Shown here: one piece after another, positions 19,569 through 60,256 of the stretch
Layout: every line of letters begins with the position of its first letter
Position numbering within the stretch: the stretch's first letter is position 1
NCBI GenBank assembly: GCA_002790835.1
Contig: PFVX01000021.1
Coordinates: 1-64,000, forward strand
DNA length: 64,000 bases
Direction of reading: 5' to 3'
DNA from: a bacterium CG_4_9_14_3_um_filter_65_15
GTDB taxonomy: Bacteria; Krumholzibacteriota; Krumholzibacteriia; LZORAL124-64-63
Made by a program: the position numbers and the translations under genes
The notes under the pieces: model-generated
The model's database searches: none
What the model saw: only the letters and a program-made list of their open reading frames with translations
Told to the model about the DNA's origin: nothing

Positions 19569-19669
19569 GGTTGCCGGTGGGTCCGGGTGTCTTCCGTTTG
19601 AAGCTTAGGTCGGGCCTGCGGCCCTCCAATGCGCTTCCGCACGGAAGACACCCGGACCCACCGGCAACC
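19569..19669. repeat. Long hairpin at the 3' end of top6A (element copy C)
   Basis: Perfect 29-base inverted arms at 19569-19597 and 19641-19669 enclose a 43-base loop. Beyond one bulge the arms continue into GCCCTG, which is the last codons and stop of top6A on the left. The loop refolds: GAAGC/GCTTC outside, then GGGCC-TGC-GGCCC. Read on the minus strand the apex is GGGCC-GCA-GGCCC-GA, similar to the apex of the hairpins at 54341 and 59161 but with different flanks. There is no T-run beside it, so a simple rho-independent terminator is not obvious. It lies directly after a stop codon, like the other two copies. Confidence 0.85.
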
Positions 19670-54340: not shown

Positions 54341-54437
54341 TGCCGCAAGGGTGATGCGTAGGCCCTGATCGAAATAATCCGCAGCCCGCAGGGCGAGGAC
54401 ATTTTTCGATCAGGGCCTACGCATCACCCTTGCGGCA
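54341..54437. repeat. Long hairpin at the 3' end of a methyltransferase gene (element copy A)
   Basis: Perfect 34-base inverted arms at 54341-54374 and 54404-54437 enclose a 29-base loop. The right arm is the 3' end of the methyltransferase gene, including its last codons and stop; the left arm is an inverted copy of it. The loop contains GCCC-GCA-GGGC (54384-54394) flanked by TAATCCGCA and GAGGACAT. A second hairpin at 59161 has the same loop flanks with GGCC-GCA-GGCC, the two changes compensating each other. No T-run is beside it. Confidence 0.9.
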
Positions 54438-55232
54438 TACCCAGTATCGCTCTCGATGGTCAATACCGAATCGTTTCAAGTCGGAAGAGGAGATTTCCCT
54501 GCCCGCGATCACTTCGGTGACCTCCCACTGCTCGCGTTCGAGAAGGTTTCCGAAATCGGGAGCGAATTGCCAGGCATGGGCATGGGCGCGGTAGGGATCG
54601 ATGCGGATGCTTTTGCTGTGGGCCAGACCCGGCTCGAAAGGCACCTGGATCCACGCCAGACCGCCCGGCTTGAGGACCCGCTGAATCTCGTCGACGCAGA
54701 TATCCAGTTCGGGAATATGTTCCAGGACATGGCTGCAGAAAATCCAGTCGACCGAGCCGTCAGCCAGGGAGGCTCCACGCAGGTCCGTCACGAAATCGGG
54801 TTGGAAACGCCGGTCGGCGGCGGCGAAATCGGTCCGATAACAGCGGCTCAGACCCTCGTGCTCCAGCAGGAAGCGCATGGCCGAGGAGAGGGAGAAACCG
54901 AGCATGGTTTCGGGCAAACGACTCGGCTGCGCCTTGAGCTCCTTGCGGACTCCCAGCACGAGCTGGCGGTGACGGTCGAAGGAGCCGCACCCCGGGCAGA
55001 TGCAATCACGGAGGACTTCGTCGGCGGAAAGAAAAGCCCGGAATCGCAGGCCGCGCCAGCCACACACCGAGCATTCCCGCGCCTCACCCAGTCCCGTGCG
55101 GGCAGCTGCGCCCAAAACCGCATTCTCGCCGGCCGCCAGCACGACTCGGGTCGCCTGCACCGGATGCCTCCACCAGCAGGCGGGCGAGCGGGTATCCAGC
55201 AGGGTGGTCCGAATGAATTCCAGGGCAGGCAA
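54417..55232 (-). CDS. SAM-dependent methyltransferase with N-terminal zinc ribbon
   Basis: A 271-residue protein. An N-terminal region contains paired CxxC motifs (ECSVCGWRG and CICPGCGSFDRHR) forming a zinc ribbon of the type seen in several RNA or sugar methyltransferases. The methyltransferase part has VTDLRGASLADGSVDWIFCS, HVLEHIPELDICVDEI and LKPGGLAWIQVPFEPG, the post-motif strands of class I enzymes of the Methyltransf_11 type. The start is TTG 55232, because TGA stands in frame nine bases before it; GGAG is at suitable spacing. The stop codon lies inside the right arm of a long hairpin. Substrate unknown. Confidence 0.8.
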   Translation of the reverse strand: MPALEFIRTTLLDTRSPACWWRHPVQATRVVLAAGENAVLGAAARTGLGEARECSVCGWRGLRFRAFLSADEVLRDCICPGCGSFDRHRQLVLGVRKELKAQPSRLPETMLGFSLSSAMRFLLEHEGLSRCYRTDFAAADRRFQPDFVTDLRGASLADGSVDWIFCSHVLEHIPELDICVDEIQRVLKPGGLAWIQVPFEPGLAHSKSIRIDPYRAHAHAWQFAPDFGNLLEREQWEVTEVIAGREISSSDLKRFGIDHRERYWVCRKGDA

Positions 55233-58125: not shown

Positions 58126-59124
58126 ATGGCGCCTTCGGCGATGAAGGGAATCGGCTGGCTCAAGGAACGCAGCGACCTGCGGGACCTCTGGATCGACATC
58201 CAGGTTTCCCCGGACACGGCAAAAGGCACGACGGCCAAGACCAGGCCCCTGACGCTGAAAGGGCCGGACGGCCCACCGCCCGCAGGCAGGTTCGGAAAGG
58301 TCGCCGCCTCGGTCGGCGGCCTGTCCTTCCCCTATCCCCCACCGCAGCAGCATTTCAGCAACGTGAAGTGGTGTCCCCCCATCGAGGACCAGCTCACGCT
58401 GGGATCATGCACCGCCCATGCCGGGGTGGGATTGCTCGAATACTACGAGAACCGGACCCACGGCAAGCACATCGACGGTTCGCGGCTCTTCCTCTACAAG
58501 GTGACCCGCAATCTGCTCAACTGGACCGGTGACACGGGGGCCTACTGCCGCACCACCATGGGAGCCATCGCGCTGCTTGGCGTCGCCATCGAGGAGTACT
58601 GGCCCTACACGGACCGGTCCCCCGATTTCGACCAGGAACCGCCCAGCTTCGTCTACGCCCTGGCCCGGAACTACCAGGGCCTCACCTACCACCGCCTGGA
58701 CGGCGTCAAGGCGACCCTGCCCCTCGACGAACGCATCAAGTTCATGATCTCCATCGGCTGGCCGCTCATGTTCGGGTTCACCTGCTACGAATCCCTGCGG
58801 GCGGAGACCGTTGCCCTCACGGGTGAAATCCCGTTCCCTTCCGCGTCCGAAAAGGTCATCGGCGGCCATGCGGTGATCGCCGTCGGCTACGACGACACCA
58901 AGAAGATCCGCAACACCCGCCTCGGCGGCAGGGAAACCACCGGCGCGTTCCTGATCCGCAATTCGTGGGGCACGCAGTGGGGCTGCGTCCCGCCGGACGC
59001 CCCCGAAGACACGACCCGCGGCTACGGCTGGCTGCCCTACGAGTACCTGGACAGCGGTCTGGCCAACGACTGGTGGACCCTGACCATGGCCGAATGGAAC
59101 GACGCCGGGGTGTTCGGCATCTAG
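58126..59124 (+). CDS. Papain-like (C1) cysteine peptidase, apparently cytoplasmic
   Basis: A 332-residue C1-family peptidase. The catalytic cysteine is in IEDQLTLGSCTAHAGVGLLEYY, where Gln supplies the oxyanion hole; the histidine is in VIGGHAVIAVGYDD and the asparagine in FLIRNSWGTQWG. No signal peptide is visible: it starts MAPSAMKGIGWLKERSDLRD, and the first 70 residues form a short Pro/Lys-rich extension that may be an inhibitory propeptide. GAAGGAAACAAC precedes the ATG. It is convergent with the 2-oxoacid oxidoreductase genes and ends near a long hairpin. Confidence 0.92.
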   Translation: MAPSAMKGIGWLKERSDLRDLWIDIQVSPDTAKGTTAKTRPLTLKGPDGPPPAGRFGKVAASVGGLSFPYPPPQQHFSNVKWCPPIEDQLTLGSCTAHAGVGLLEYYENRTHGKHIDGSRLFLYKVTRNLLNWTGDTGAYCRTTMGAIALLGVAIEEYWPYTDRSPDFDQEPPSFVYALARNYQGLTYHRLDGVKATLPLDERIKFMISIGWPLMFGFTCYESLRAETVALTGEIPFPSASEKVIGGHAVIAVGYDDTKKIRNTRLGGRETTGAFLIRNSWGTQWGCVPPDAPEDTTRGYGWLPYEYLDSGLANDWWTLTMAEWNDAGVFGI

Positions 59125-59160
59125 CGCGTCCGCACCCAACCTTCGAGCGGCCCCTTCCCC

Positions 59161-59242
59161 CACCCGCCCGAAAACAACGAGTCCCGGTAATCCGCAGGCC
59201 GCAGGCCGAGGACATCCGGGACTCGTTGTTTTCGGGCGGGTG
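59161..59242. repeat. Long hairpin at the 3' end of korB (element copy B)
   Basis: Perfect 27-base inverted arms at 59161-59187 and 59216-59242 enclose a 28-base loop. With a few mismatches the arms extend to about 59143 and 59257, reaching the korB stop codon. The loop reads TAATCCGCAG then GCC-GCA-GG then CCGAGGACAT (59188-59215) and contains GGCC-GCA-GGCC at 59197-59207. Apart from two compensating bases, it is identical to the loop of the hairpin at 54375-54403. It lies between the convergent peptidase and korB genes. Confidence 0.9.
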
Positions 59243-59254
59243 AGGGAAAGGCCG

Positions 59255-60256
59255 CTACTTGACCTCCCAAACATCCTTGGTATAAAGCAGATCCTTCAGG
59301 CTGCCCTCGCCCTTGGTGCCGGTCACGGCGCCCACCTGGTCCCAGACCTGCTGGTCCAGGGTCGGCCGGGACACGCTCCGCAGCACACCCATCGGCCGCG
59401 GCATGTTCGGGTCGTTGTCCAGCTGGGACATGACGAAGGCCGGGCCCGGGGATTCGTGGGTCGGATCCCAGACCGAAGCATCCTCGGCCGAACAGATCTC
59501 GATCTTGCAACCGTCGGTCTTCAGACCCTTGTCCTGGTCCTTGCCGAAGATCATCTTCTCGCCCGCCACCAGGTTGACGGTCTCCTCGTCGCGGACAGCT
59601 TTCTCAGTCCAGGACTTGAAGGCGCCGTCGTTGAAGATCACGCAGTTCTGCCAGACCTCAACGAAAGCGGCTCCCTTGTGCTCGGCGGCCGCGCGCAGCA
59701 CGGTCTTCATGTGCTTGGGGTTCACGTCCATGGTGCGGGCCACGAAGGTCGCTCCCGCTCCCAGAGCCAGCTGGATGGGGTTGAACGGCGCATCCAGCGA
59801 ACCGTAGGGCGAAGTCTTGGTCCGTTGCCCCATGGGCGTGGTCGGGGAGTACTGCCCCTTGGTCAGACCGTAGATCTCGTTGTTGAACAGGATGATCTTC
59901 ATGTCCACGTTGCGGCGCAGGGAGTGGATCATGTGGTTGCCGCCGATGGACAGGCCGTCGCCGTCACCGGTGATGACCCACACCGAAAGGTCGGGGTTGG
60001 CCACCTTCACACCGGTGGCGATGGCGTTGGCCCGACCGTGGATACTGTGCATCCCATAGGTCTCCATGTAGTAGGGGAAACGACTGGAACAGCCGATGCC
60101 CGACACGATCACGAAGTTCTCCTGGGGCACGCCCATGTCGGCCATAGTGGCCTGGACGCCGCTGAGGATGGAGTAGTCGCCGCACCCGGGGCACCACCGC
60201 ACCTCCTGGTCGGACTTGAAGTCCTTGGCTTTCAGTTGCTGCAGCTCACTCATCAC
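59255..60256 (-). CDS. korB: 2-oxoacid:ferredoxin oxidoreductase, beta subunit (KorB)
   Basis: A 333-residue thiamine-diphosphate-binding subunit. RWCPGCGDYSILSGVQATMA opens with the cluster-region cysteines, SGIGCSSRFPYYMETYGMHS is the family loop, and VITGDGDGLSIGGNHMIHSLRRN with IILFNNEIYGLTKGQYSPTT is the TPP/magnesium motif (GDG-x25-NN-like). It transfers electrons from oxidative decarboxylation of 2-oxoglutarate or pyruvate to ferredoxin, or runs in reverse to fix CO2. It overlaps korA by four bases (ATGA). Confidence 0.93.
   Translation of the reverse strand: MMSELQQLKAKDFKSDQEVRWCPGCGDYSILSGVQATMADMGVPQENFVIVSGIGCSSRFPYYMETYGMHSIHGRANAIATGVKVANPDLSVWVITGDGDGLSIGGNHMIHSLRRNVDMKIILFNNEIYGLTKGQYSPTTPMGQRTKTSPYGSLDAPFNPIQLALGAGATFVARTMDVNPKHMKTVLRAAAEHKGAAFVEVWQNCVIFNDGAFKSWTEKAVRDEETVNLVAGEKMIFGKDQDKGLKTDGCKIEICSAEDASVWDPTHESPGPAFVMSQLDNDPNMPRPMGVLRSVSRPTLDQQVWDQVGAVTGTKGEGSLKDLLYTKDVWEVK

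Follow-up and report, generated by a model that had tools for sequence, protein, structure and literature searches.

Operon-end hairpins with a conserved loop module and variable arms in one family of Krumholzibacteriota

INTRODUCTION

Intrinsic (Rho-independent) terminators are thought to depend on a hairpin shape and a U-tract, whatever the sequence of the loop. Bidirectional terminators of this type, together with the uptake-signal terminators of Neisseria and Pasteurellaceae, are the closest known kinds to the elements described here, which came to light as a long hairpin in a metagenome-assembled genome (MAG) of a Krumholzibacteriota bacterium. The elements resemble bidirectional intrinsic terminators in placing a hairpin right past the stop codon at operon ends, with a GC-rich inner stem, an A-tract before it, and a T-tract after it, and in being exchanged with plain hairpins at the ends of the korB and peroxiredoxin genes. 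They differ in having a conserved loop module, stems with a median of 37 bp that extend into the coding end, and a fixed orientation of the loop relative to the gene. With the uptake-signal terminators they share the reuse of a conserved motif in many long-stem operon-end hairpins with weaker T-tails (PMC1852404). In Neisseria and Pasteurellaceae, however, it is the stem that consists of the motif, present as an inverted pair, and there are approximately 1,000 or more copies, also outside terminators (Kingsford et al. 2007, PMC1852404); in the present elements the motif makes up the loop, with no conservation of the stem, and copies number approximately 20.

Three further systems invite comparison. 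Like REP/BIME sequences with their RAYT transposases, the elements are short palindromes scattered between genes, often close to 3' ends; unlike them, they have unconserved arms and lack an intact Y1_Tnp gene in the genomes tested, whereas REPs conserve the stem and come with a Y1-type transposase. In integron attC sites, which are accompanied by an integrase, a variable terminal structure is bordered by conserved outer R boxes, in contrast to the unconserved outer arms and conserved central part found here. Finally, template switching at quasipalindromes and inverted repeats yields homogenized arms and inverted spacers, both of which are seen in our elements; it is, however, a mutational process tied to no one conserved spacer sequence (PMC8604942).

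RESULTS AND DISCUSSION

Two hairpins with a common core

The window analyzed is a 64,000-nucleotide (nt) stretch of bacterium CG_4_9_14_3_um_filter_65_15 (GenBank assembly GCA_002790835.1, contig PFVX01000021.1, positions 1 to 64,000). Inverted-repeat analysis bore out the preliminary description of a perfect hairpin at positions 54341 to 54437: two 34-bp arms (54341 to 54374 and 54404 to 54437) enclose a 29-nt loop, and the pairing extends to 37 bp at 97%. The element follows a minus-strand gene for a class I methyltransferase-domain protein (54417 to 55232; Pfam Methyltransf_11, 5e-11), the TGA stop codon of which lies at 54417 to 54419. In the sense of this gene, the 5' (gene-side) arm at 54404 to 54437 contains its last codons, the stop codon, and 13 nt beyond; the earlier equation of this arm with the last codons and stop was thus right about what it includes and slightly too strong in leaving out those 13 nt. 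The 3' (distal) arm at 54341 to 54374 is the perfect complement, an inverted copy of the gene end. Between the arms lies the core at 54376 to 54402 (minus strand, ATGTCCTCGCCCTGCGGGCTGCGGATT in sense; the core-orientation pattern falls on the plus strand), which matches the core pattern with no mismatches and lies within a covariance-model match at 54349 to 54430. A short T-rich stretch directly past the core in sense (ATTATTTC; 54371 to 54378, minus strand) is a weak U-tract candidate, in keeping with the family-wide enrichment of T past the core.

A second hairpin in the window has 33-bp arms with one mismatch (59155 to 59187 and 59216 to 59248) and a 28-nt loop. Its minus-strand core (59189 to 59215; ATGTCCTCGGCCTGCGGCCTGCGGATT in sense) also fits the core pattern with no mismatches and gives the best covariance-model match of the genome (59161 to 59243). 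The gene-side arm (59216 to 59248, minus strand) begins 7 nt past the stop codon of a minus-strand gene for a korB-like 2-oxoacid:ferredoxin oxidoreductase subunit beta (59255 to 60256; Pfam TPP_enzyme_C, 1e-34), and the distal arm (59155 to 59187, minus strand) holds a candidate U-tract at 59171 to 59180 (TCGTTGTTTT in sense). A plus-strand gene of the papain-family cysteine protease type (58126 to 59124; Pfam Peptidase_C1, 4e-8) converges on this element.

The two 27-nt cores differ at two positions, which pair with each other, as had been claimed for the nearly identical loops; no core-to-core match within 3 mismatches was found in 100 shuffled windows. Both elements fold as RNA approximately 12 to 13 standard deviations better than shuffled sequences (z-score of -13.1 for the first, with none of 200 shuffles equally good). 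Such hairpins are scarce in this genome: scanning 464 kb (i.e., the window plus 400 kb of the same genome) for inverted repeats with arms of at least 18 bp revealed six, of which five contain the core and the sixth contains another core in the same layout.

Copy number and distribution

The covariance model identified 20 elements in the 3.39-Mb source MAG, in line with the prediction that more copies of the core would exist. Searching the whole genome with a core-only pattern returned nine true copies and one chance match within coding sequence; of the nine, eight have near-perfect arms that are unrelated to one another, and one is armless. A looser core-only pattern gave 17 matches, 16 of them armed. 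Neither pattern takes the arms into account, so their coupling to the core does not result from how the copies were chosen. A larger set comprises 131 elements from 12 genomes; since the model used to collect it covers the arms as well, the core-only searches are the proper source for the armed fraction.

Among the genomes analyzed, all of which are MAGs, elements are present in 30 of 38 members of the same family, with up to 23 per genome. None was detected in 42 genomes from other families of the phylum or in genera g6 and g11 of the same family. Rfam 15, searched at a relaxed threshold, returned sub-threshold matches only, nearly all to eukaryotic miRNA hairpin models; we regard these as chance matches and rejected membership in an Rfam family. 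No description of the element turned up in full-text searches of open papers. The family is large and apparently undescribed.

In one MAG (G021), about a dozen contigs (C11, C14, C19, C25, C40, C41, C45, C54, C55, C58, C68, and C70) start or end inside a core or immediately next to one, as though the center of the hairpin brought assembly or sequencing to a halt. True copy numbers are probably above our counts.

Structure of the element

Read in the sense of the adjoining gene, an element consists of the stop codon, approximately 40 nt including the 5' arm, GTCCTC followed by G or A, a variable mini-hairpin, CTGCGGA(TTA), and the inverted 3' arm. GTCCTC and CTGCGGA are nearly invariant, and the mini-hairpin is free in both sequence and length. 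The arms have a median length of 37 bp, are 94.7% Watson-Crick paired, and are unrelated between loci. An alignment of 26 cores from several genomes, made without reference to structure, is gapless over 83 columns. In it, 95.6% of the arm cells pair, compared with 56% after shuffling and 30 to 46% when partners are slid; changes on both sides occur at all 27 arm pairs, and every arm column is variable on both sides, leaving no conserved stem sequence.

The arms thus differ at every locus and are self-complementary at each, as the preliminary description had anticipated. It had also named arm conservation as an observation that would count against its proposal; the arms are indeed unrelated across loci, yet they are not wholly arbitrary, since a GC-rich inner segment of 5 to 8 bp is followed by a phased A-tract and T-tract. 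The A fraction of the 5' arm rises to 0.37 to 0.42 (versus ~0.2) at -10 to -20, and the T fraction of the 3' arm rises to 0.36 to 0.40 (versus ~0.18) at +10 to +20. At least 5 T in 8 nt are found within 30 nt past the core in 47% of elements, compared with 8% of control windows, and the densest T window mostly begins 8 to 13 nt past the core, the T-rich end of the core itself excepted. The T-tracts vary by copy and are weak in some, including the first element of the window.

Mismatches in the arms, read as sense RNA, comprise 62 G·U and 85 A·C (P = 0.07), showing no G·U bias; RNA stability alone is therefore unlikely to keep the arms perfect. This pattern would fit a constraint acting on the two transcribed strands alike or a copying process at the DNA level.

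Genomic context

Genes were called with our own codon-usage gene finder, seeded with identified genes, so that individual calls are approximate. A sense gene with its stop codon within 150 nt of the core accompanies 116 of the 131 elements, the stop lying on average 38 nt (SD, 9) ahead of the core in the 103 elements measured; about seven of the remaining fifteen show the same geometry with an inverted core. The next gene is convergent for 63 of 101 element genes, compared with 82 of 277 gene ends across a 400-kb portion of the source genome (P = 1e-8), and tandem next genes start at least 143 bp from the stop. Two elements situated between a pair of convergent genes point inward, and each has the orientation of the gene that it follows. 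A composite transposon was considered for such inward-facing doublets and rejected; one pair in genome G000 flanks methylglyoxal synthase, and the remaining pairs are explained by convergent gene ends. Among the upstream genes, those identified by Pfam include the genes for initiation factor 2, RNA polymerase beta', peroxiredoxin, a succinate dehydrogenase-type iron-sulfur protein, korB, glutamate dehydrogenase, an ABC ATPase, and an asparaginase-family protein.

Stop codon usage is skewed at these loci. TAG terminates 72 of 116 element genes, compared with 30 of 85 other genes at the same loci (P = 2e-4); in the source genome, the excess takes the form of non-TGA stops (12 of 16 element genes versus 78 of 213).

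Orthologous sites and arm turnover

Protein similarity groups 71 of the 116 upstream genes into 26 clusters common to several genomes, mostly the same gene in different species. The peroxiredoxin gene carries an element in six genomes of the clustered set (83 to 88% protein identity), in G003 and G020, and, with an inverted core, in G011; plain hairpins occupy the site in G001, G004, G005, G007, G008, G010, and G031. At korB, the core is found in the source genome and in G002, and the seven other orthologues examined (G001, G003, G009, G011, G018, G020, and G026) have plain post-stop hairpins, several with clear A- and T-tracts. The element and the ordinary hairpin therefore share one slot. 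By eye, a few cases suggested that the plain terminators are palindromized half-cores; we rejected this idea on finding no enrichment (1.5 per genome in the family versus 1.8 outside).

Across genera, the arms have no evident common sequence beyond the A/T-tract pattern, yet they remain paired. Within genera, 21 alignable comparisons, not all of them orthologous, yielded 140 compensated pairs versus 14 one-sided changes. The methyltransferase gene of the window illustrates this turnover: its orthologue in G003 carries an element with other arms, that in G002 has an inverted core and an arm that copies the differing gene end of G002 itself, and the congener G001 has the gene end with neither core nor second arm. 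The last of these is an empty site of the kind that the preliminary description had proposed to seek in a close relative.

Contig C15 of G002 (loci L128 and L156) ends in an inverted, diverged copy of the 3' end of korB (approximately 82% identity at the DNA level), arranged around the element. This represents either two korB copies tail to tail or a chimeric contig.

Interpretation as probable operon-end signals

Taken together, the sequence evidence makes it probable that the elements are lineage-specific operon-end hairpins, most likely 3'-end signals of the intrinsic bidirectional terminator type with a conserved loop module. An operon-end position and a GC-rich hairpin with a U-rich tract both characterize the elements, the tract being weak in some copies, and a terminator-type signal best explains where they lie, how they are oriented, their A/T tracts, and their exchange with plain hairpins. 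Selection on a post-gene RNA structure, one of the possibilities raised at the outset, is likewise supported by the fixed polarity and stop distance, the operon-end site, the A/T tracts, and the cross-genus orthologous sites with compensated arms.

In the nascent RNA, shortly past the stop codon, a GC-rich stem of approximately 6 to 8 bp would close around the core GUCCUC-(variable mini-hairpin)-CUGCGGAUUA, and RNA polymerase would then be released at a U-rich tract lying approximately 10 to 20 nt beyond the core. Thanks to the A-rich mirror on the opposite strand, the signal may work from either side; the outer arm, which reaches back to or into the stop codon, would seal the 3' end. We infer that the core is the binding site of a trans-acting factor, because the mini-hairpin is nearly free and the flanking nucleotides tolerate few changes. 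Rapid turnover of the arms between species with complementarity kept could reflect selection on pairing together with replicative template switching between arms, and both are expected to act; such switching would also invert the spacer, and inverted cores are seen at orthologous sites (the G002 methyltransferase and G011 peroxiredoxin genes).

Termination alone does not account for the conserved core or for the length and perfection of the arms, and it counts against a terminator role that ordinary terminators in the same genomes need no core. At two loci (G012 L235 and G026 L185), a putative AraC-type regulator gene is followed by an ordinary-looking A/T-tract terminator and then by the element, forming two stop signals in series; because the ordinary terminator comes first, the element may do something besides primary termination there. 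More tentatively, one conserved RNA or folded-DNA module, read by a dedicated factor, might both mark the ends of mostly housekeeping operons and itself create and renew its arms from the adjacent gene end.

Throughout most of a bacterial family, the loop motif has persisted although the surrounding stems changed almost completely, which suggests a hitherto undescribed reader of terminator loops. The elements also constitute a large natural data set for comparing two ways in which perfect hairpins may stay paired, point-by-point compensation and template-switch copying, and the covariance model is ready for marking operon ends in these uncultured bacteria.

Alternative explanations

The alternative that survives best, though we consider it unlikely, is that the arms are mainly mutational: the mini-hairpin would fold the nascent DNA strand back in replication so that the gene end is copied, any gene end receiving a core would gain and keep near-perfect arms, and a termination role would be a by-product. 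Arms and core are indeed coupled, with no long hairpin of the same layout lacking a core in the 464 kb and with arms at all but one of the 17 looser matches; the mismatches show no G·U bias, core inversions occur, and the distal arm tracks the species-specific last codons of its own gene. Switching between inverted-repeat arms is known to homogenize arms and invert spacers (PMC8604942). However, free inversion should bring the two orientations near half each, and the observed bias is strong (116 versus about seven inverted); the A/T tracts and operon-end position imply function; and in an infB trio, one C·A mismatch is kept between two pairs changed on both sides, where copying would have erased it.

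We give still less weight to a tiny REP- or MITE-like mobile element that inserted at gene ends and built its arms from the target, which the preliminary description had put forward and which proved unsupported as the main explanation. One core at many loci with unrelated arms, the empty site in G001, and one armless copy (L007) would all be expected of such an element. Against this, most of the upstream genes (71 of 116) belong to clusters common to several genomes, so that sites are shared, and the elements nearly always sit at operon ends in one orientation, at a fixed stop distance. Nor does a Y1/RAYT-type transposase track them: PF01797 (Y1 transposase) was absent from 21 of 23 genomes, and the copies in the other two are each interrupted by an internal stop, leaving none intact. 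True viral copies were likewise absent, and a viral origin was discarded, the four matches on viral contigs being armless and having the look of chance. Insertion into pre-existing long hairpins was also dismissed, such hairpins being absent from the 464 kb. Nothing points to present mobility.

It is similarly doubtful, and if anything more so, that the element is a DNA-level site (a folded single strand or cruciform) read by a protein, for example in recombination, uptake, or chromosome organization, with secondary terminator-like features. The perfect Watson-Crick arms without wobble bias would suit such a site, as would the antisense mini-hairpin, which mostly ends in a GNA triloop (GAA, 57; GCA, 15; GTA, 2), a loop that is very stable in DNA. 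The polarity of the core, however, follows the transcript of the neighboring gene, and convergent genes each have their own element. The approximately 20 copies per genome are also far below the number of uptake sequences, which is generally at least 1,000 (PMC1852404). Fold-back chimeras in MAGs would explain why many G021 cores lie at contig ends, as long hairpins break assemblies, but such an assembly artefact is hardly credible when most copies are internal with different genes on either side and the same gene ends carry elements in MAGs of several accession series, with the core conserved and the arms different.

An armless copy and another hairpin of the window

The only armless core of the source genome (L007, 1501 to 1527; G000:C12:161624-161650) lies behind a signal-peptidase-like gene, adjoins a short tandem repeat (GTGATGCG) and a T-rich tract, and is 854 bp from an armed copy across mgsA. 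Directly past this core stands GTTCTTTTATTATC, and the copy fits a minimal form of the terminator-type signal. A third giant hairpin in the window (19569 to 19669), with 29-bp perfect arms and a 43-nt loop, begins directly past a TGA stop codon and matches the layout of the armed elements, but its core is another one (GAAGC...GGGCC-TGC-GGCCC...GCTTC). No further copy of that core appeared in 1.5 Mb of sequence searched for it; the hairpin possibly represents a second family.
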